Assembly (NCBI RefSeq): GCF_001466725.1
Contig: NZ_CP013650.1
Span: 3,596,001-3,660,000, forward strand
DNA length: 64,000 nt
Direction of reading: 5' to 3'
DNA from: Lacimicrobium alkaliphilum
Lineage (GTDB): Bacteria > Pseudomonadota > Gammaproteobacteria > Enterobacterales > Alteromonadaceae
Below, piece after piece: positions 30,290-42,643 of the stretch. Every line of letters starts with the position of its first letter. The stretch's first letter is position 1. The notes below the pieces were generated by a model. That model ran no database searches. It was given only the letters and a program-made list of their open reading frames with translations, and had not been told where the DNA came from. A program made the position numbers and the translations under genes.

Positions 30290-30718
30290 TTAAATATCCA
30301 GAACCTGTGGCTGCTGAGCGGCATGAACATGCTCAGAACCAGCGTAGACCTTCATTTTGCGGAACATCGCGCGGCCCAGAGGACCTTTTGGCAACATACC
30401 TTTAACCGCTCTTTCGATGATCAGCTCAGGCTTGTGAGCCTGCAGCTTTTCGAAAGTGGTCTCTTTCAGCCCACCAACGTAGCCTGAATACGAATAGTAC
30501 ATTTTGTTCTGAGTCTTGTTTCCGGTGACCCGAACTTTTTCTGCGTTGATGACCACGATGTAATCACCTGTGTCCACATGAGGTGTATACTCAGGCTTAT
30601 GCTTACCGCGCAGACGACGGGCTATTTCAGTGGCCAAGCGTCCAAGGGTCTTGTCTGTGGCATCAACCACAAACCAGTCACGTTTTACCGTTTCCGGTTT
30701 AGCAACAAAGGTTTTCAT
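30290..30718 (-). CDS. rplM: 50S ribosomal protein L13
   Basis: 142 residues. The signature [30 protein letters not shown] and [18 protein letters not shown] blocks are present (named here by their ends: [17 protein letters not shown]). First gene of the rplM-rpsI operon. Confidence 0.99.
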
Positions 30719-30881
30719 TTCTCGTTACCCAAAATTTCAATATGTAGTTACTAATGCACTTGCGGTTTGGCTTTCACCACCAACAAGGCTGCTTAACTGA
30801 GTAAATTGCCCCTTCGAGCATCTCAGTTGTCCCGCTTTCCCACAAGCGGCTGTCGTGTAACTGGGCAGGGCGCGCATTATA
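30719..30881 (-). promoter_or_regulatory. rplM-rpsI promoter and structured leader
   Basis: Minus-strand -10 TATAAT at 30876-30881 gives a leader of about 150 nt. Two hairpins lie in it: CCGCTT/AAGCGG near 30834-30850 and AACTGAG/CTCAGTT (30795-30801 with 30822-30828). Leader length and structure suggest autogenous control of the r-protein operon; the L13 binding site is not identifiable by eye. The -35 is weak. Confidence 0.55.
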
Positions 30882-30982
30882 CAGCAGTAAAAAATAAACG
30901 CGAGGATAAATTTTATGCATATTTGATTGAGGAGAGAGGGGGGAAGAGAGAAGAAGAGGCGGAAAACCCTCAGTTTCCGGTC

Positions 30983-31007
30983 ATGCCCGGATGTCGTTGT
31001 CGGGCAT
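30983..31007. repeat. Short hairpin repeat (ATGCCCG...CGGGCAT), copy 1
   Basis: ATGCCCG at 30983-30989 pairs with CGGGCAT at 31001-31007; context TCATGCCCG...TGTCGTTGTCGGGCATTCAGC. A second copy with nearly the same context is at 63004-63028. Both are followed by a copy of the ACCACAGAG repeat. Confidence 0.8.
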
Positions 31008-31104
31008 TCAGCAGCCTTTGAATATTCAGATACGTCCCCAGCAGCATTGAGAAATCAAAGGTGCAGGACAGACCCAGCGACTTTATTATAAAAAAGCAAA
31101 ACTA

Positions 31105-31215
31105 ACCACAGAGTCACAGAGAACACGGAGAACTGCAGGGCCCATACCTTAAAACCTCTGTGACTCTGTGGTTAAAATTTCTTTTTCGGGCTTTTAATGT
31201 AGTTCGTAGTAAAAA
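31105..31215 (+). repeat. Dispersed intergenic repeat, copy B
   Basis: ACCACAGAGTCACAGAGAAC... with the exact inverted counterpart CTCTGTGACTCTGTGGT about 45 bases later, then a degenerate TTTTTCGGGCTTTT...GTTCGTAGT tail. Same family as copies near 25311, 49249 and 63057. Confidence 0.8.
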
Positions 31216-31229
31216 AACCGAAATCTCTA

Positions 31230-31258
31230 TTGCAAATCATTCTCACTTGCAATAAATT
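31230..31258 (+). promoter_or_regulatory. Promoter with embedded Fur box
   Basis: -35 TTGCAA (31230-31235), a 17-base spacer and -10 TAAATT (31253-31258). The spacer region 31231-31245 read on the minus strand is TGAGAATGATTTGCA, which agrees with the 7-1-7 Fur consensus TGATAAT-N-ATTATCA at most positions. A Fur box between -35 and -10 is the classic layout for iron repression. Binding is inferred from the motif. Confidence 0.6.
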
Positions 31259-31264
31259 AAGGTT

Positions 31265-31363
31265 GCACTACTCCTCAAGTCTACTGGTCTTTCTTGGGAG
31301 TCATACCAATTCCTATAATTGGTACTTACCGGGCGGGTTCTCCATGGCCCGCCCGGTTTTTTA
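31265..31363 (+). ncRNA. Candidate iron-regulated small RNA
   Basis: A ~99-nt transcript is predicted from the Fur-box promoter to the terminator at 31328-31362. It contains no ATG. Structure visible by eye: an unpaired pyrimidine-rich 5' part (CACTACTCCTCAAG, which includes an anti-Shine-Dalgarno-like CTCCT), a small palindrome ACCAATT/AATTGGT at about 31306-31325 and the terminator stem. It has no evident sequence match to RyhB or PrrF. Alternatively it is an attenuated leader of the downstream borosin operon. Confidence 0.5.
31328..31362 (+). terminator. Strong terminator between the Fur-box promoter and the borosin genes
   Basis: Perfect 10-bp GC-rich stem ACCGGGCGGG (31328-31337) / CCCGCCCGGT (31348-31357) with a ten-base loop and a run of six Ts. 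Confidence 0.88.
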
Positions 31364-31382
31364 TCTGGGTCATCCTTCACTG

Positions 31383-31411
31383 TTGCGCCTGTGGTGATTA
31401 TTTCTTATTCT
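31383..31411 (+). promoter_or_regulatory. Possible promoter of the borosin operon
   Basis: TTGCGC (31383-31388), 17-base spacer, TATTCT (31406-31411). Lies between the strong terminator and the GTG at 31452, so the operon could be transcribed independently of the Fur-box promoter. Confidence 0.35.
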
Positions 31412-31451
31412 TCACCAATGGGATAATGGGTGTAATAGTAGGATCGTTGCT

Positions 31452-32273
31452 GTGGATGCAAAAAAAGGACGCCTGACAATCGCTGGCTGTGGTCTGCACC
31501 CAGGGCATATGACACTGGAAACCCAGAGCCTTATTCAGACAGCAGAATCCGTATTACTGGTGGCTCCCAACCCCTTATCTATCCAGCATATCCGCCAGCT
31601 CAACCCACACACCGAACACCTTGGCCGCTTTTATAATATGGGTTATTCCCGGCCGGAGATTTACCGTCAGATGGCGCTGTATATTATTGCTCTCGTACAT
31701 CAGGGAAGGTCGGTTTGCGTGGTCTTCTATGGTCACCCCGGTGTGTTTGTCTCATCCACCCGCATGGCCAGCCGGGTACTGGCCGAGCAAGGCTATCCGG
31801 TGACCATGTTACCGGGGATCTCAGCCGATGCCTGTCTGTATGCCGATTTAGGGCTGGATCCTGCCGATACCGGCTGTCAGAGCTATGAATCCACCCGCTT
31901 TTTACTCACCCGCAGAGAAATCGACAGCAGCGCGGCGCTGATTTTATGGCAACTGGGGCTGACCGGCGAGCACAGCATGGATAAATTCGAACCGGGTCAG
32001 CAGGGCCTGGCGGCCTTAAGCCGGTTGCTGCAACAAAGCTACCCGGCAGAACATATGCTGTGTTTATACGAGGCCCCCACCCTGCCCGGATTTGAGCCCC
32101 GCAAGGACTGGATTGCGCTGGCCGATTTGGCAAAGGCCGATGTGAATACCATAACCACACTCTATGTGCCGGCCTGCCGCGAGCCCACCTTCGCCGAAGA
32201 GCGATTAGGATGGCTGGGCCTGACTGAGGCCGACATCAGCCACTGGGATGAGTACGAAGAGATAACGATATAA
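31452..32273 (+). CDS. Split-borosin peptide backbone alpha-N-methyltransferase (SonM-like)
   Basis: 273 residues of the tetrapyrrole-methylase fold, but the sequence pattern is that of borosin RiPP methyltransferases (fungal OphMA; discrete SonM of Shewanella oneidensis), which methylate backbone amides of a precursor peptide. Visible: SAM loop IAGCGLHPGHMTLET (10-24); the R67-x3-Y71 pair in SRPEIYRQM, matching the catalytic Arg/Tyr spacing of OphMA/SonM; VVFYGHPGVFVSS (90-102); LPGISADACLYADLGLDP; and CQSYESTRFLL. GTG start at 31452, the only in-frame start at the expected distance from the SAM loop. Followed 48 bases later by a small gene with borosin-precursor features. Other uses of the fold (cobalamin or siroheme methylation, RsmI) are disfavoured by these motifs and by the neighbour. 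Confidence 0.85.
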   Translation: MDAKKGRLTIAGCGLHPGHMTLETQSLIQTAESVLLVAPNPLSIQHIRQLNPHTEHLGRFYNMGYSRPEIYRQMALYIIALVHQGRSVCVVFYGHPGVFVSSTRMASRVLAEQGYPVTMLPGISADACLYADLGLDPADTGCQSYESTRFLLTRREIDSSAALILWQLGLTGEHSMDKFEPGQQGLAALSRLLQQSYPAEHMLCLYEAPTLPGFEPRKDWIALADLAKADVNTITTLYVPACREPTFAEERLGWLGLTEADISHWDEYEEITI

Positions 32274-32321
32274 AACGAGTTGCAATCAGGCAACCAACAA
32301 TGGCAATAAGAGGGAATAACA

Positions 32322-32597
32322 ATGGACAACTTAAGCCGTTTCTACTTACAACTGGCTACCGATGCCAATAAGCTACAGGCCTTTAATCTTAGCGAGGATA
32401 ACCGCCGAACCATGTTACAACAGGCTGGCGTTAAGGATATTGATAACATCCTTAACATGGATAAAGAAAGCCTGCGCCAGATGCTGGCTAAAAAGCTGAT
32501 AGAGCAGACTGGTGACTGGCAGGGGCTGGATAAGACCTCTGACAACGACGACAACAAAAACAATATCGGCCGTATTGGCCGCGCTGTAACCCACTGA
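32322..32597 (+). CDS. Split-borosin precursor peptide (SonA-like)
   Basis: 91 residues, GAGGG eight bases before the ATG. The N-terminal ~60 residues (LSRFYLQLATDANKLQAFN, LQQAGVKDIDNILNMDKESLRQML) are all-helical and resemble the borosin-binding domain of SonA, which has the pattern LSxFFxQLxxDA...MxxxGLT...I...D...L. A hydrophilic Asp/Asn/Lys linker follows (about 65-80), then a short C-terminal tail, NIGRIGRAVTH, that is the likely core: Ile and Val there are candidates for N-methylation. Placed directly after the methyltransferase and seven bases before the kinase gene. Function of the mature product is unknown. Confidence 0.78.
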   Translation: MDNLSRFYLQLATDANKLQAFNLSEDNRRTMLQQAGVKDIDNILNMDKESLRQMLAKKLIEQTGDWQGLDKTSDNDDNKNNIGRIGRAVTH

Positions 32598-32604
32598 GGT
32601 CTGC

Positions 32605-35600
32605 GTGTGCCGGTTATTGTGCTTTCTGGTTTTGCTCGCATCGGTATTAATGCCCGCTGCAGGCGCTCAGAGTCCGGACAATAATCCGGCACCGGGCTCA
32701 GCCTCTCAGCAATCTGTAGGTGGAAACTGGTTTGCTGAGCGTACCGAACAATTGGCCCGTAACCAGCCCGAAGATGCCCTGACCCTGGCACAGCAGGCAC
32801 TGGCGTTTTTTGCCGATAACCCCGACCCTCAGGCCCATGGCCGGGTACTGAATGCCTCGGCCTATGCGCTGTACTTTATGGGCCGTTATGGCGAGTCCAT
32901 GCAGCATGCCCGTGACGCTGAGCTGCTGGCCGAACAACATCAATTATCTGAAGTCCGTGCCCGAGGGCTAATGTTACAGGGCAATGTATTACAGAGTATC
33001 GGCGAATACCCCCGCGCTATTACTAAGTACCAGCAGGCTGCAGGATATTACCGTGAGGCCGGTAATCAGCTGTATGAAGGCTATTGTTATAATAATATGG
33101 CCAATACTTATAAGAATGCAGGTCAGTTGCAAACCGCTCTGGAGTATTATCAGCAATATCGCCTGCTTTCAGCCGAACAAGACAATCTGGCCAGCGCAGA
33201 AAAAGGCACCGGAGAGGTGTTCCTCGAACTGGGTGATGTCGAGAAAGCCACCCGTTATTTTAAAAATGCACTGACCCTTTACCGCGAGGATCGGGATAAC
33301 CTCGGAGTGGCAATGGCCAGTAATGCACTGGGAGAAGCGCTGCTTGCCAAAGAGGATATTACCGGGGCCATCGCTTTGTTTGACAGGGCTATTGAACTGT
33401 CGGTTCAGAATAACCTTCAGTACACTTTATTCAGTTCTCTTGTTCTGAAGTCTTCCGCCTTAAGCAGACAGGGCGAGATGGAGCAGGCTCTGGAATTGCT
33501 TTTACAGGCCCGTCAAACCGCACAGGATATGGGCAGCAAAGCAAACCTAAGCAAAGTCGAATACCACCTGGCTGATATCTACGAAAAAAATAACCAGTTA
33601 CAACCTGCCATAAATGCGCTTAAATCGGCACAACAACTACAGCAAGAATATTTAAGTGCGCGCAGCGCCACCCAGCTCAGCGTGATGCAGGCGCTGTTTG
33701 ACAGCGAAACCAAAGCCGCGCAGATAGAGCAACTGGAGCAGCAAAATCAGCTGTTACAGCTGGAGCAGAAGGTCAGCCATCAGAATACCCAGAATGCCCG
33801 GCTGATGGCGGCCATGTTATTTGGCGCTCTGGGGCTGATTACTCTGTGGGCGGTACATATTTTTCGTGAGCGGCAACGCTTAAGTCGTCTCGCTGAAGAG
33901 CTAAAACAAGCACGGCAGCAGGCCGAATCGGCGGCTCAGACCAAGGCCGCTTTTCTGGCCAATATGAGCCATGAGATCCGCACCCCCATTAATGCAGTAA
34001 TGGGTCTGAGCCGACTGGCTCTGGATACTGGCTCTGTGCAGGAGAAAAAAGATCACCTGAATAAAATACTGGATGCTGGCAATACCCTGCTGAGACTGGT
34101 GGACGATATTCTCGATTTCTCCCGTATTGAAGCGGGAAAACTGCATATTGACCACATTGCTATGGAACCAAAAAGGGTCCTGCAGTCGGCGATAAATATG
34201 AATGCGGTGCAGGCCCACGATAAGGGCTTGTCCCTGATTAACGACATCGATACCGCCATGCCAGCGAGGATGATGGGGGATCCATGGCGAACCCAGCAGA
34301 TACTGGTGAACCTGATCAGCAATGCAGTGAAATTTACCAGCCAGGGCCACATCACGGTTTCCGCTCGCAAAAGCAATCAATCAGGCGATTCCCGCCCTAT
34401 GGTACTGTTCAGTGTTTCTGATACCGGCATTGGTATGAGTAAAGAGCAACAACAAAGACTGTTTCAGTCTTTTACTCAGGGCGATGATTCCATCACCCGA
34501 CAATACGGCGGTACCGGACTGGGACTGGCAATCAGCAAACAACTCTGCGAATTAATGGGTGGAGAGATATGGGTTCACAGTGAAGTCGGCAAAGGCTCTA
34601 CCTTCAGCTTTACTTTGCCCCTGAATCAGCCATTGGATGACTCCGCCACAGCTCCCCAGCCTGAGCGCGCTATTACACCGGCCCCCCCGGATTTTAGCGG
34701 CTATGCACTGTTACTGGTGGACGATAACAGTATCAACTGTGAAGTCGCCAAAGGCATGTTGAGTAAAACCGGTATTGTGGTGGACGTGGCCACCAACGGC
34801 TTACAGGCATTAGAAAAGCTGCAACAACAGCCCTATGATCTGATCCTGATGGATATCCAGATGCCAGGCTTAGATGGCCTCAGCGCTACACAGCGTATCC
34901 GCGGCGAATTAAAACTGGAAACCCCTGTTATCGCCATGACCGCCCATGCCATGGCATCAGACAAAAACAAGAGCCTGCAGGCAGGCATGGACGATCATCT
35001 GGCCAAGCCCATTGAGCCGGCTGAGCTGTATGCTGTGATGCAACGACACCTGCCAGCACAGACTTCCAACAGAGATAACCCTCTTCTTACTGAACATCCG
35101 AACCAGCAGGAGCTCACGGCATCAGGCACCGATGTGCAATCAGATGAGATGCTTCTGGCAATACTGGAAGATATAAAGGTACTGAATACCGAAAAAGCGT
35201 TGCAAAGACTGGCCGGCAATACGGCCTTATATATAAAACTTATCCGCTCTTTCTGTCGCGATCAGCGCCATACTTCCGCCAGAATAAAAAGGATGCTGGC
35301 AGGGGATGATCAGAAGGGACTGTTTCGTGCTATTCACTCACTGAAATCCAGTTTTGCCTATATTGGCGCTTTTGAACAATCCCAGTCATGTATGGTCCTC
35401 GAAGACAAGCTGCAGCAGCAACAACATTGTGGTGATAGCATTGCTACACTTTGCCGGCAACTGGATGCCTTACTTGAGGCGCTCGGACCTTTTTGCTCTG
35501 AAACGGGCAGCCAAAAGGGGCGATTAAAGCAGGCGGATCTGAGCAACGAGTTAGTGGCAATTATCCCCATGCTGGAACAATCGGATCTCAGCGCACAAGA

Positions 35601-35796
35601 GCGCTTAGCTGCGCTGCAAACAGATTTCGATGACAGCACATTAACGGAACAGTTTGATCAGTTGATGCGGTTCACCCATGAGGTGGAGTTCGAGAAGGCA
35701 GCCAGATTGGCACGCAGAATTCTGTCCCGATTACAGCCCGGTGAACAAACGGCCGATAACCAGGCTGACAACAACCATAACGATAAGCCCCAATGA
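32605..35796 (+). CDS. TPR hybrid sensor histidine kinase with REC and Hpt domains
   Basis: 1063 residues. Signal peptide (1-21), periplasmic TPR repeats at about 40-350, coiled coil, one membrane span at about 399-420, a second short coiled coil, HisKA with phospho-His H456 (NMSHEIRTP), HATPase with N (NLISNAVKF), G1 (DTGIGMS) and G2 (GGTGLGLA) boxes at about 557-672, receiver at about 700-815 (D706/D707, phospho-acceptor D750, K801), and an Hpt-like domain with H911 (AIHSLKSSF). A complete phosphorelay therefore sits in one protein. GTG start at 32605, seven bases after the borosin precursor; its stop overlaps the next gene as ATGA. The TPR sensor could bind a protein or peptide ligand; that the ligand is the neighbouring borosin is inference only. 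Confidence 0.9.
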
Positions 35797-36734
35797 GCGA
35801 GCGTCAGCAAATACTGATTATTGATGATGAGACAGATAATCTGCGGATCTTAAGTGATATTCTCAGAGAGCAGGCGGATATTATTCTGGCCAAAAGTGGT
35901 CAGCAGGGGATCCGTAAGGCAGCAGAGCTGAAACCGGACCTGATTCTGCTGGATGTGGTGATGCAGGGCATGGACGGCTTTGAAGTCATGACCACTCTGA
36001 AACATAACGCCGAAACCAGTGATATTCCGGTCATCTTTATTACCTCACTAGGTGAAACCCATCACGAAGAAAAAGGTTTCAGGCTCGGTGCCTGTGACTA
36101 TATCCAGAAGCCATTTCATACCACTATTGTACTGGCGCGCACCAAATTACACCTTGAGTTGCGTCGTCAACGCACCATGCTGGAACAACTGGCTAATATT
36201 GATCCACTGACCGGTATCGCCAACCGCCGGCGCTACGAAGAAGTGCTGAAACGTGAATGGCGTGTCGCCATGCGTAAACAGAGCCCTGTTTCGCTGATCC
36301 TGGTGGATATCGATAATTTTAAGCACTACAACGATCATTTTGGCCACGCCGCTGGCGACAAAGTGTTGAAAAAAGTCGCCTGCGCCTTCAGAGACCGCTT
36401 ACAACGGCCGAGGGATCTGGTGGCCCGTTTTGGTGGCGAGGAGTTTATTATTCTGTTACCGGATAATGATCGCCAGGGCTGTATAGAGGTGATGGAACGT
36501 TGCCGGCAGGCGATTGAACAGATGCCACTGGATGATCTTAATAATCCGGATATTCGTCATATTACCGTCAGCATTGGCGGCTACACCTGTCGTCCGGATA
36601 CCGATAGCAAGCCCCAGGAAGCGATAAAAATGGCCGATGACATGTTGTATATGGCTAAGCATCAGGGAAAAAACCGCATCCTCTGGTTTTGTGATAGTGA
36701 AGGTATCAGTGAAAGCCCTCCGGCCACTTTATAG
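35793..36734 (+). CDS. Response regulator with diguanylate cyclase (REC-GGDEF)
   Basis: 313 residues. Receiver at about 5-120 with acidic pair D11/D12, phospho-acceptor D54 and K106 region (IQKPF); GGDEF domain at about 133-300 with intact GGEEF (214-218) and the RxxD inhibitory site RPRD (205-208) five residues before it, so it should make c-di-GMP and be product-inhibited. Overlaps the hybrid kinase by four bases (ATGA), making it the probable output of that phosphorelay. Confidence 0.93.
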   Translation: MSERQQILIIDDETDNLRILSDILREQADIILAKSGQQGIRKAAELKPDLILLDVVMQGMDGFEVMTTLKHNAETSDIPVIFITSLGETHHEEKGFRLGACDYIQKPFHTTIVLARTKLHLELRRQRTMLEQLANIDPLTGIANRRRYEEVLKREWRVAMRKQSPVSLILVDIDNFKHYNDHFGHAAGDKVLKKVACAFRDRLQRPRDLVARFGGEEFIILLPDNDRQGCIEVMERCRQAIEQMPLDDLNNPDIRHITVSIGGYTCRPDTDSKPQEAIKMADDMLYMAKHQGKNRILWFCDSEGISESPPATL

Positions 36735-39720: not shown

Positions 39721-40707
39721 TTAAGCGGGTTGGTCCAGTTGATCAAGACAAAGGCTGTTGCGCCCTGATGCCTTAGCCTGATACATGGCTTTGTCAGCGC
39801 GGCCCAGCCACTCAAAGCCTGTTTCATTGCCCTGATATTCTGCCACCCCTAATGAAATGGTAACGTTTTTGTGACTGATTTGTGCACCGGCAATTTCTTT
39901 GCGTAACTCTTCGGCCAGTTTGGCTGCTTCATTCAGTTTGGTATTGATGGCCATAATCACAAACTCTTCTCCACCAAACCTGAATACCTTGTCCGTGCGA
40001 CGGATCCTTCGACGGATAATACTGGTCACTTCGATCAGGATCTTATCGCCTTCTTCATGACCATATTCATCGTTAAAAGCTTTAAAGTTATCCAGATCAA
40101 GCAGGATCAGGGACATCGACACTGGCACCCGGCGATACTGAGCCACCGCTTCAAGCAGGCACTCTTCCAGGGCCCGGCGGTTTCCGGCACCGGTCAGGGC
40201 GTCAGTGGTTGCCAGTTGAATCAGTTGTTGCTGCTGTTGGCGCATTCTCAGGGCAAATACAAAGGTGAAACCCACAGTGGCGCTGATGGTCAGATAAAAG
40301 CTGGCCAGGCGCACCAGATCTATCTCCGCGAAGACCATGGGAAATATCACCAGCAGTGTTACCACCACATAACCCAATGCCAGCCAGGGACGTAACAAAA
40401 AGAAAACCGCCAGAACGGCGGGATAAGCCCAGAAAACCTGTTCGCTGCCGCGCAACTCCACGGTGCCGAGCAGTGCCAGGGCAGACACCAATGCCAGCAC
40501 ATGGCTCATCAGGTTGGTCTTTCGTCTGACTCTGACGAAGAAAAAGATGGTCAGCATTGCCACCACGGCAAAGGCATCCAGCAGGGCGATAAGCCAGTCT
40601 CCCTGCAACAGACGCATTACCATAAAAGGGCTGATACTCAATGCCCCAAGCAGGCTGATGGTCATCACCACCCACTCCTCTGCCGTGCGAATCTGCTGCT
40701 GCATCAA
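39721..40707 (-). CDS. Membrane diguanylate cyclase (GGDEF)
   Basis: 328 residues: five or six membrane spans in residues 12-155 (a 5TM/7TM-like unclassified sensor), then a GGDEF domain at about 165-322 with intact GGEEF and an RxxD inhibitory site (RRTD) five residues before it. Thirteen bases after the GGDEF-EAL gene and on the same strand, so probably co-transcribed with it. Confidence 0.93.
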   Translation of the reverse strand: MMQQQIRTAEEWVVMTISLLGALSISPFMVMRLLQGDWLIALLDAFAVVAMLTIFFFVRVRRKTNLMSHVLALVSALALLGTVELRGSEQVFWAYPAVLAVFFLLRPWLALGYVVVTLLVIFPMVFAEIDLVRLASFYLTISATVGFTFVFALRMRQQQQQLIQLATTDALTGAGNRRALEECLLEAVAQYRRVPVSMSLILLDLDNFKAFNDEYGHEEGDKILIEVTSIIRRRIRRTDKVFRFGGEEFVIMAINTKLNEAAKLAEELRKEIAGAQISHKNVTISLGVAEYQGNETGFEWLGRADKAMYQAKASGRNSLCLDQLDQPA

Positions 40708-40720
40708 ATATTCCTTGTCA

Positions 40721-42643
40721 TTAAAGTCCCCTGGTGGTTGCAGAGGATTTCACTACCAACTCAATAAAATCCATCGGCGGGCAAGGCCTGGACCAATAAA
40801 ACCCCTGCCCTTTCTCGCATCCAAGGAGCCTGAGTTGTTCCGCTACCTCTTCTGTTTCCACCCCTTCTGCGACAATTTCAAGGTTAAGGCTGTGTGCCAT
40901 CTGGATAATTGCCCGGACTATGGCTTCGTCCTGTTTACTTTGATTTATCTTACTGACAAAACTGCGGTCTACCTTGAGCATATTAACATCGAAACGTTGC
41001 AGATAACCGAGGTTGCAATAACCTGTACCAAAATCATCAATCGCCAATATCACACCCTGTTCTCTTAACCCCTGCAGGCACATCTGCAGACTGTGCTGAA
41101 CATCCAGCAATAGAGATTCTGTCAGCTCCAGAACCAGAAATTCGCCCGATAAGCCAGTCTGACTTAAAACCTGTTTAACCTGCAGTTCAAAATCACCGCG
41201 GCGCAACTGAATGGCTGAAACATTAACAGAAACACTCAGGTTCTTGTAACCAAGCTCATGCCAACGTTTACATTGCGACACTGCTGATTCCAGCACCCAA
41301 AGCCCCAGCTCCACAATCAATCCGGCCCGCTCTGCCAACGGGATAAACTCAACCGGAGATATCCATCCCCGCTGCGGATGCTGCCAGCGCACGAGCGCTT
41401 CGGCACCCACTATGTTGCCTGTTTTAAGTTCCACTTTCGGTTGATAATGCAGACATAGCTGATCACCTGACAGGGCCTGCCGCAGATCCTGGGTCAACTG
41501 CAATACCTCCTGCTCTGACTGATTCATATCCTGATTGTAAAAGCAGTAATTATTGCGACCTTTATCCTTACAGCTATACATGGCTGCATCGGCCTTCTGG
41601 CATAGCTCATCAAAGCTCAGCCCATCGTTGGGCCCTAGGGCAATACCTATAGAGCCACTGACGACCAGCTCGTTGCCATTGATATAAAAGGGCCTGGAAA
41701 TTCCCCGTAAAATACGCTGAGCCAGTTGGTGAATCTGAGTGTCATCCACAAAGTTCTGACTGAGAATGACAAACTCATCGCCACCAAAACGGCAGATGGT
41801 ATCGGAGTCCCGGAGAACAGATTGAAGCCGCTGCGCCATTTTCTTTAAGAATTCATCGCCGATGGCGTGGCCCAGCGAATCATTGATGGCTTTGAAGTGA
41901 TCAAGATCAAGGAAAATTAAGGCAAATTTACTGTTTTCCCGCTGAGCCAGTGCCATCGACTGTTCGAACAACTCCTTTGCTAATCTGCGATTCGGCAAAT
42001 CGGTCAGGGGATCATGATTATACAGCCGGCTTATCTCATCTTTGGACTCCATCACCCGCAGATTCTCTCTTGAGAGCTTCTCTAACAGGTTGCGCAAATC
42101 TCTGGACAACAACCAAACGCTGAATGTAACCATCACCAGAATGGCACAGGTCAGAAAAGCGCTGCTAAGATCACGCGCCGGCACTTCATTGGTATAAAGC
42201 CCGGCTTCATTTATATAGCCCAGCAGCATCACTGTGCCCAACATATACAAAAGCAACAGCACCAGCAGCCCGTAGCTGGCGATCACCGCTGAGAAAATAA
42301 GGATTGCCGGAAACACCAGTAAGGCCTCGTCATTGAGTCCGCCATAGACCCACATAAAATAACTGGTGGTGATAGTTAGTGAGGTTAAAAACAGCGCTGC
42401 ACCTACCTGCAGCCGCCCATATTTAGCAACGTAATAGCAAAGACCCAGAATCAACGCCAGCACGGTCAATATCAGCGCGGTTTGCCAGCTACCCAGCAGT
42501 AATCTCTGAATCACTACAATAAGCAAACAAAACTCACTGGCGATTAATATCTGCCGCAATTTATCCAGTTTGAACGCCAGAGCCTGATCAGCAGACAAGG
42601 GTTTCAACGGACGGGAAGCCATCTCAGAAGATTTCTCAGACAA
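40721..42643 (-). CDS. Membrane GGDEF-EAL bifunctional c-di-GMP protein
   Basis: 640 residues. Six hydrophobic segments in about 35-200, then GGDEF (RFGGDEFVIL, intact, no obvious RxxD inhibitory site) and an EAL phosphodiesterase domain with EALVRWQHP, NVSAIQLRR, ELTES, DDFGTGYCNL, KVDRSFV and EGVET, all with catalytic residues retained. Could make, break, or sense c-di-GMP. Pairs with the following diguanylate cyclase. Confidence 0.93.
   Translation of the reverse strand: MSEKSSEMASRPLKPLSADQALAFKLDKLRQILIASEFCLLIVVIQRLLLGSWQTALILTVLALILGLCYYVAKYGRLQVGAALFLTSLTITTSYFMWVYGGLNDEALLVFPAILIFSAVIASYGLLVLLLLYMLGTVMLLGYINEAGLYTNEVPARDLSSAFLTCAILVMVTFSVWLLSRDLRNLLEKLSRENLRVMESKDEISRLYNHDPLTDLPNRRLAKELFEQSMALAQRENSKFALIFLDLDHFKAINDSLGHAIGDEFLKKMAQRLQSVLRDSDTICRFGGDEFVILSQNFVDDTQIHQLAQRILRGISRPFYINGNELVVSGSIGIALGPNDGLSFDELCQKADAAMYSCKDKGRNNYCFYNQDMNQSEQEVLQLTQDLRQALSGDQLCLHYQPKVELKTGNIVGAEALVRWQHPQRGWISPVEFIPLAERAGLIVELGLWVLESAVSQCKRWHELGYKNLSVSVNVSAIQLRRGDFELQVKQVLSQTGLSGEFLVLELTESLLLDVQHSLQMCLQGLREQGVILAIDDFGTGYCNLGYLQRFDVNMLKVDRSFVSKINQSKQDEAIVRAIIQMAHSLNLEIVAEGVETEEVAEQLRLLGCEKGQGFYWSRPCPPMDFIELVVKSSATTRGL

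Follow-up and report, generated by a model that had tools for sequence, protein, structure and literature searches.

Why would the genes for a ribosomal peptide with predicted backbone methylation share a unit with a sensor kinase and a diguanylate cyclase? The question is raised by a 64,000-nucleotide stretch of the Lacimicrobium alkaliphilum genome (contig NZ_CP013650.1, positions 3,596,001 to 3,660,000; hereafter the window, in whose own numbering coordinates are given), which carries between 31452 and 36734 a split borosin methyltransferase gene, a precursor gene, a gene for a hybrid histidine kinase with a TPR sensor, and a gene for a REC-GGDEF protein. Comparing this locus with its relatives, we find that the C-terminal core of the precursor and the TPR sensor half of the neighbouring protein change together, while the methyltransferase, the precursor leader, and the output domain stay as they are. 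The comparisons suggest that the locus is probably a modified-peptide signalling unit, in which the TPR receptor encoded next door would recognise the methylated core as its cognate ligand and would feed into cyclic di-GMP (c-di-GMP).

Peptide core and TPR sensor change together

The precursor (32322..32597, + strand; 91 aa, ten orthologues aligned) divides into a leader, or borosin-binding part (residues 1–66, 32322..32519, where its profile match to SonA-type leaders falls), and a putative core (residues 77–91, DNKNNIGRIGRAVTH, 32550..32594), the extent and methylation sites of which are predicted. The adjoining kinase (32605..35796, + strand; 1063 aa from a GTG start) begins with the sensor half, in which a TPR solenoid and the start of a coiled coil (residues 44–400, 32734..33804), predicted to be extracytoplasmic, form the proposed receptor of the core, as suggested by an AlphaFold2 model and by co-variation with the core.

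Among the three Bowmanella species, which fall in the window's own clade, identities were 85–89% for the methyltransferase, 68–76% for the leader, and 74–86% for the kinase, but 41–42% for the TPR region and 36–50% for the core, and the drop spans kinase residues 1–360 and stops at the coiled coil. The three Lacimicrobium loci, which share one core type, have TPR regions that are 80–87% identical and cores that are at least 80% identical (87–93% within the genus). Two pairs of loci from a Shewanella-like genus show the same behaviour: L082 and L083 share 99% of the methyltransferase and 98% of the GGDEF domain, yet 48% of the TPR region and 25–44% of the core, and L085 and L086 share 97%, 99%, and 51% for methyltransferase, GGDEF domain, and TPR region, the core identity within the two pairs being 25–50%. 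Along the DNA of these pairs, identity drops at the core codons, from about 95% to about 50%, and is regained ahead of the membrane helix, and L082 and L085, which have one core type, are 91% identical in the TPR region. More broadly, among 32 pairs with methyltransferases at least 90% identical, the 14 with precursor tails less than 60% alike had TPR identities of 45–57%, and the other 18 had 49–99% (mean 81%).

The relationship was also apparent in partial correlations over 50 loci—two of 52 were dropped for want of a sensor in the stretch (one cut by a contig end), and L083, L090, and L158, with two precursors apiece, were represented by the one closest to the sensor. The core correlated with the TPR region (0.46; 0/2000 permutations) and with neither the GGDEF domain (−0.01; 1113/2000) nor, appreciably, the methyltransferase (0.11; 89/2000). 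The signal was present in every third of the TPR region and held when only distant pairs were considered (methyltransferase identity below 75%, 948 of 1225 pairs; 0.32–0.34, 0/1000). Within the window's own clade of 12 loci, the core again co-varied with the TPR region (0.43; 19/2000) and not with the kinase (−0.06). Unlinked TPR-GGDEF orthologues of one family, compared between the same two Shewanella-like genome pairs, show no such break (TPR 78% and GGDEF 91% in one pair, 85% and 85% in the other).

Two of the two-precursor loci, L083 and L158, carry tandem SonA-type genes of which the first has an aberrant C-terminus and the second adjoins the sensor. The second precursor of L083 fits the type of its sensor, the TPR region being 83% identical to that of L084, whose core is alike. 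Such arrangements would fit the addition of a new type next to an older one.

Layout of the unit and identity of the borosin pair

A listing of open reading frames (ORFs) places all four genes on the + strand where the sequence-only reading had put them, with gaps of 48 bp between methyltransferase and precursor and 7 bp between precursor and kinase, and with a 4-base overlap (ATGA) between the kinase and REC-GGDEF genes. The single-unit layout proposed there likewise stands: a terminator scan found no terminator-like sites on the + strand at the junctions between the four genes, and the order is kept in relatives.

The first product (31452..32273, +; 273 aa, GTG start; PF00590, E 1.2e-16) had been taken for a borosin methyltransferase, and this was borne out. 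Its best PDB match is SonM (7ltc, E 1.6e-45), followed by fungal borosin enzymes, and the SonM residues Y58, R67, Y71, Y93, F99, and W166, which are discussed in the accessible text of PMC8429565, align with Y61, R67, Y71, Y93, F99, and W166, so that the catalytic residues are kept. A cobalamin- or siroheme-type methylase is ruled out, matches to YabN and cobalamin-type enzymes being weak and far below the NCBIfam cut-offs. By sequence comparison, the product is thus confirmed as a SonM-type backbone N-methyltransferase—that is, the separately encoded alpha-N-methyltransferase of a split (type IV) borosin system.

The precursor has no Pfam or NCBIfam match, and PDB searches with its single sequence or with the ten-orthologue profile did not recover SonA, which counts against a borosin-binding leader. 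A profile–profile comparison, however, matched the ten orthologues to a SonA-type family across 56 columns of the leader (90.9% probability, E 1.2e-6). The proposal of a SonA-like precursor is therefore upheld by that comparison, and the gene has the place and the leader of a type IV precursor. By eye, it has no hydrophobic N-terminus or signal sequence. Candidate precursors were recognised by eye downstream of the methyltransferase in 25 of the 38 loci L044–L081, and none was recognised there in the other 13.

The TPR sensor, not the relay, is the constant partner

The kinase matches the Pfam families TPR_12, HisKA, HATPase_c, Response_reg, and Hpt. A signal-sequence-like stretch (about residues 1–21, 32605..32667, with a hydropathy peak at residues 1–19) precedes the solenoid, and a transmembrane helix predicted by hydropathy (residues 402–420, 33808..33864) follows it; then come HisKA with the motif SHEIRTP and H456 (33943..34137), HATPase_c (34276..34626), a receiver domain with D750 (34711..35037), and an Hpt domain with H911 (35239..35478). 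The last gene (35793..36734, +; 313 aa; PF00072 and PF00990) encodes the REC-GGDEF diguanylate cyclase, with D54, a GGEEF motif, and an RxxD site.

The AlphaFold2 model of the sensor TPR region (predicted local distance difference test score, pLDDT, 90.9) resembles LGN and RRNPP peptide receptors in PDB fold matches, and as modelled it would have the peptide-binding solenoid fold of the RRNPP type. By hydropathy, 66 of 75 sensors combine a hydrophobic stretch at the N-terminus with a membrane helix ahead of the output, a clear N-terminal stretch being absent in 8; the TPR part is thus predicted, from sequence, to be extracytoplasmic or periplasmic.

Kinase-type and GGDEF-type sensors are colinear from end to end (hhalign probability 99.9–100% over 376–389 columns, E 1e-37 to 1e-42), and one locus, L081, is a natural output swap—it encodes a kinase, yet both its methyltransferase and its sensor fall inside GGDEF-linked clades of the respective trees. 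What stays constant beside the borosin genes is therefore the TPR sensor and not the c-di-GMP relay; the output varies between kinase, hybrid kinase, and directly fused GGDEF domain. A sensor profile found three full-length matches in this genome, at its three borosin loci, and one partial match elsewhere; as the profile was trained on linked sensors, the score gap between linked and unlinked sensors is biased and is not relied on, the swaps and correlations being used instead. Linked kinase sensors group with unlinked ones in the sensor tree, so the linked sensors are not one clade.

These results qualify the earlier view of the locus as a complete His-Asp-His-Asp relay ending in c-di-GMP. 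Within the window that view stands as far as motifs go, H456, D750, H911, and D54 all being intact, but the REC-GGDEF gene follows the kinase in only five of nine relatives (those in Lacimicrobium and Bowmanella). A similar layout is found at L051 (12985–13884), in a second kinase clade where a REC-GGDEF gene comes directly after a TPR hybrid kinase, so the kinase-to-GGDEF arrangement is not confined to the window's clade.

Distribution and limits of the association

In a contig scan, the order methyltransferase–precursor–TPR kinase was kept in all nine homologous loci of other genomes, which span three labelled families: Lacimicrobium (2), Bowmanella (3), Planctobacterium, Aliikangiella (2), and one Kangiellaceae metagenome-assembled genome. 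The expected co-occurrence of the genes in relatives was thus found for the first three, and less generally for the fourth. The Planctobacterium kinase aligns across the receiver and Hpt domains.

Matches to the methyltransferase were found in 35 of 98 genomes (its own included), three of them weak (1.8e-4 to 7.4e-4). The wider loci share a plan of methyltransferase, short ORF, and TPR sensor protein of about 380 residues with a kinase or GGDEF domain, although the sensor gene precedes the methyltransferase in some, and most of the related loci have the sensor in direct fusion with GGDEF. A methyltransferase tree was built from 90 sequences plus that of the window, 7 of 97 ORFs having been dropped beforehand as too long or too short. 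Of its 91 rows, 56 are accompanied by GGDEF, 21 by a TPR kinase, one by both, and 13 by neither; the GGDEF label needed no TPR-profile hit, and five rows lack one (L056 twice, L060, L078, and L100). On the main branch, 78 of 82 rows adjoin a TPR kinase or GGDEF protein, and 9 of the 13 unlinked rows lie off it; one of the four unlinked rows on it is a piece of the broken L065 methyltransferase beside a TPR-GGDEF gene. Kinase output alone occurs at three places on this tree. The trees were quick, with long branches and supports from the Shimodaira–Hasegawa-like approximate likelihood ratio test (SH-aLRT) only, and support for the 82-row branch (92) is below the tool's mark of 95. The L065 locus itself (G000:C1:1489342-1490060) holds this genome's third borosin methyltransferase as two separate match pieces and is probably decaying.

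Neighbour counts agree with the tree: a kinase or GGDEF ORF lies within 600 bp downstream on the same strand for 61 of 91 methyltransferase ORFs, against 10 of 271 control ORFs from those loci, ORFs near stretch ends being excluded. In the Shewanella-like genus, SonM is present in 52 of 60 genomes (one methyltransferase being 99% identical to the PDB SonM), with a SonA-type precursor at all 52 SonM loci and an adjoining GGDEF sensor at 50. At class level, a methyltransferase match (E 1e-20) was found in 10 of 369 genomes, and of eight new loci (L109–L116) two have a sensor and six do not. Plasmid borosin methyltransferases (20 records) are all below 60% identity, and an ORF scan of plasmid loci L119–L124 (6 of the 20 records, 3 of them annotated) found no kinase or GGDEF ORF within 3 kb. 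The class-level and plasmid results indicate that the sensor link belongs to one clade rather than to borosin methyltransferases at large.

Methyltransferase distances correlate with those of the sensors (r 0.78 across 73 pairs, 0/2000 permutations; r 0.69 for 29 pairs from the Shewanella-like genus, where two paralogous systems occur). The link between peptide and kinase, at the outset inferred from gene order, thus no longer depends on gene order alone, since conservation in relatives, the methyltransferase–sensor correlation, and the co-variation of core and sensor all point the same way.

Proposed mechanism and alternative explanations

In the proposed mechanism, the 31452 enzyme would bind the precursor leader and N-methylate backbone amides near the C-terminus, as its homology to SonM and intact residues suggest. 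The modified core would then exit the cytoplasm, a passage that N-methylation might ease, and bind the extracytoplasmic TPR solenoid of the adjoining kinase, to which, as the co-variation suggests, it would be matched in specificity. Binding would alter the kinase, and phosphate may pass along H456, D750, and H911 to D54 of REC-GGDEF (consistent with the intact motifs and overlapping genes), whereupon c-di-GMP synthesis would change; in the sensor-GGDEF fusions of related loci the relay would be skipped. Taken further, we lean slightly towards the view that split borosins of Alteromonadales-type bacteria are a family of Gram-negative, backbone-N-methylated ribosomal pheromones with cognate periplasmic TPR receptors. 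On this view core and receptor would be exchanged together as a specificity cassette, giving rise to pherotypes, against a shared background of methyltransferase and leader, and either a kinase relay or GGDEF could serve as output, usually ending in c-di-GMP.

Several observations weigh against a ligand–receptor relation or against parts of this scheme. The main caveat is that the core and TPR codons are adjacent on the DNA, so that a single recombination tract can transfer the two together irrespective of function. The core also correlates with the coiled coil (0.22–0.26 over the 50 loci) and, without the TPR region among the controls, with the GGDEF domain (0.11, 25/1000, over all pairs; 0.02 and −0.07 among more distant pairs); in the window's clade it co-varies with the methyltransferase as well (0.52; 2/2000). 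For a third precursor type, with 23 loci and an ill-defined core, the correlation with the TPR region is only 0.14 (101/2000), and in two comparisons (L089 with L091 and L091 with L160) the tails are alike (62%) yet the TPR regions are 49–51% identical. The unlinked control is a single family, and in 20 of its 21 pairs the TPR region was less conserved than the GGDEF domain, the gap reaching 22 points. Because TPR folds are generic, function does not follow from a fold match. Unlike that of SonA, the window core is polar, and no exporter, protease, or secretion signal was seen by eye or in the ORF listing at the locus. The REC-GGDEF gene is absent beside four of the nine relatives, three relatives have a kinase without receiver or Hpt and no adjoining regulator gene, and the sensor link is mostly missing outside the main methyltransferase branch.

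How far these points favour another explanation depends on the explanation. That the co-variation reflects mere adjacency in a hypervariable, often recombined stretch, with no relation of ligand to receptor, would fit the contiguous codons and an identity drop that forms one block; we nonetheless judge it improbable, as, in separate lineages and with two output types, the block begins and ends close to functional borders, the neighbouring leader is not swapped along with the core, the correlation reaches the far third of the TPR region and holds among distant pairs, and the break is absent from the one family of unlinked orthologues. Somewhat less improbable, though still unlikely, is that the borosin is an antimicrobial or other bioactive compound and the TPR kinase merely senses the product or its effects (self-regulation or immunity, as in lantibiotic autoregulation), with signalling secondary. 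The fungal borosin omphalotin A is called nematocidal in the accessible text of PMC11285071, and the pepsin-like protease and GNAT genes at some GGDEF-type loci resemble a biosynthetic cluster; the recurring partner, however, is a sensor, no recurring exporter or immunity gene was noticed among the neighbours identified (only some were), and the divergence of core and receptor in matched types is more typical of a private signal.

Least likely of all seems an arrangement in which nothing is secreted and the full-length methylated precursor acts as a cytoplasmic accessory subunit of the sensor. It would explain a precursor that lacks a signal sequence, a locus at which no exporter or protease is seen by eye, and the 8 of 75 sensors without a clear N-terminal hydrophobic stretch, but the co-varying half of the sensor is the one predicted to be extracytoplasmic (66 of 75 by topology), and the cytoplasmic output does not co-vary with the core once the TPR region is controlled for (weakly, at 0.11, without that control). 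The signalling unit with the core as cognate ligand thus remains the reading we prefer.

Neighbouring genes and upstream region

Some GGDEF-type loci carry further genes near the methyltransferase: a pepsin-like protease with a GNAT protein within 4.5 kb in 14 of 56 rows, GNAT alone in 8, and neither in 34, against none of 20 kinase rows with either gene, though the Shewanella-like stretches cover only about 2–3 kb before the methyltransferase and more distant neighbours could be missed there. One such locus is this genome's second borosin locus (L064, 7579–10601), where a pepsin-like aspartic protease (PF00026) and a GNAT lie beside the methyltransferase, at 17 bp and 296 bp. At L037–L039 and L048, in two separate clades, very large hybrid kinases end about 80–125 bp upstream of the methyltransferase (2200 aa with Pkinase, AAA, and GAF in L037; 1415 aa with HAMP and GAF in L048).

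Upstream of the unit, a conserved stretch (31231–31364, +) lies between genes for S9-like and L13-like ribosomal proteins, as recognised by eye, and the methyltransferase. It opens with a Fur-box-like near-palindrome (31231–31252), followed by about 105 nt that fold far better than shuffled sequences (z −4.96) and include a 12-pair terminator at 31328–31357. The stretch, matched in 4 of 59 genomes (three of Lacimicrobium's genus and one other), looks like a Fur-controlled small RNA. A riboswitch or c-di-GMP leader ahead of the methyltransferase is not indicated: in the loci of eight relatives no Rfam family reached gathering level, and Rfam matches in window positions 30700–31600 were all below gathering scores and were taken as chance. 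Some 3 kb downstream, two ORFs on the − strand (39721–42643; 328 and 640 aa) appear by eye to be GGDEF-like and EAL-like. Anti-phage defence was ruled out: a search yielded nothing at E 1e-5 for the methyltransferase, precursor, or REC-GGDEF protein, and only generic TPR profiles for the kinase.

Significance and comparison with known systems

The c-di-GMP relay had been put forward as a possible new context for borosins. The GGDEF part of it is not new, as the Fig. 1 legend in the accessible part of PMC11395268 already names a GGDEF domain in borosin architecture, and it is the TPR sensor that is constant. A borosin–receptor pair is named in no title or abstract returned by our full-text literature searches, a scope outside which lie most subscription papers and the two papers cited for split-borosin types V–X, which may describe such neighbours. 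Should the proposal be correct, a well-studied enzyme family would gain a function, and with it SonM/SonA, a pair whose structures are available but whose product is not known. A core that acts as ligand of the TPR receptor would also give Gram-negative bacteria a ribosomally made peptide signal divided into private specificity groups, and would give c-di-GMP, with its roles in biofilm and motility, an input from a peptide. N-methylation might also plausibly explain how such a peptide passes the membrane when no exporter is obvious. Since receptor, ligand, and natural allelic types can be named by sequence, the claim is testable in Shewanella oneidensis MR-1.

RRNPP receptors such as Rap, NprR, and PlcR are soluble proteins of the cytoplasm, where they bind unmodified peptides that have been re-imported. 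The window sensor, as modelled, shares their fold but differs in setting: its TPR region is predicted to be extracytoplasmic, hydropathy showing a hydrophobic stretch at the N-terminus and a single membrane helix, and sensors of this kind are fused to a kinase or GGDEF domain, so that it is not a soluble cytoplasmic receptor.

The closest chemistry is that of SonM/SonA of Shewanella oneidensis, a type IV system that, in the accessible text of PMC8429565, likewise combines a separate alpha-N-methyltransferase, its catalytic residues conserved here, with a short precursor bearing a helical binding leader and a C-terminal core. The window precursor is longer (91 aa), with a polar core outside the columns aligned with SonA-type precursors, and its unit continues with a TPR kinase and REC-GGDEF, whereas SonM/SonA-type loci continue with a GGDEF sensor (50 of 52). 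The PF00026 proteases beside some GGDEF-type methyltransferases, one of them in this genome, recall shewasin-type bacterial pepsin homologues (PMC4814920, accessible part), although none was seen at the window locus; as shewasin D is cytoplasmic according to the same text, removal of the borosin leader is a candidate role for such proteases.

The closest gene logic is that of the quorum-sensing system ComQXPA of Bacillus, as far as the accessible text of PMC4008528 describes it—a modifying enzyme, precursor, sensor kinase, and response regulator on one strand, a receptor whose input half is far more variable than its cytoplasmic half, and specificity groups, which would correspond to the matched types of the borosin loci. 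The two differ in modification (isoprenylation versus backbone N-methylation), receptor (multi-pass membrane protein versus predicted periplasmic TPR solenoid), regulator (DNA-binding versus REC-GGDEF), and host, ComQXPA being Gram-positive. With an enzyme of the borosin/TP-methylase family in place of the isoprenyl-transferase ComQ and REC-GGDEF in place of the DNA-binding ComA, the window unit is no member of that family; with its order of enzyme, precursor, kinase, and regulator and its co-varying peptide and receptor input half, it would, by analogy, work like one, following the logic of comQ-comX-comP-comA with parts from unrelated families.

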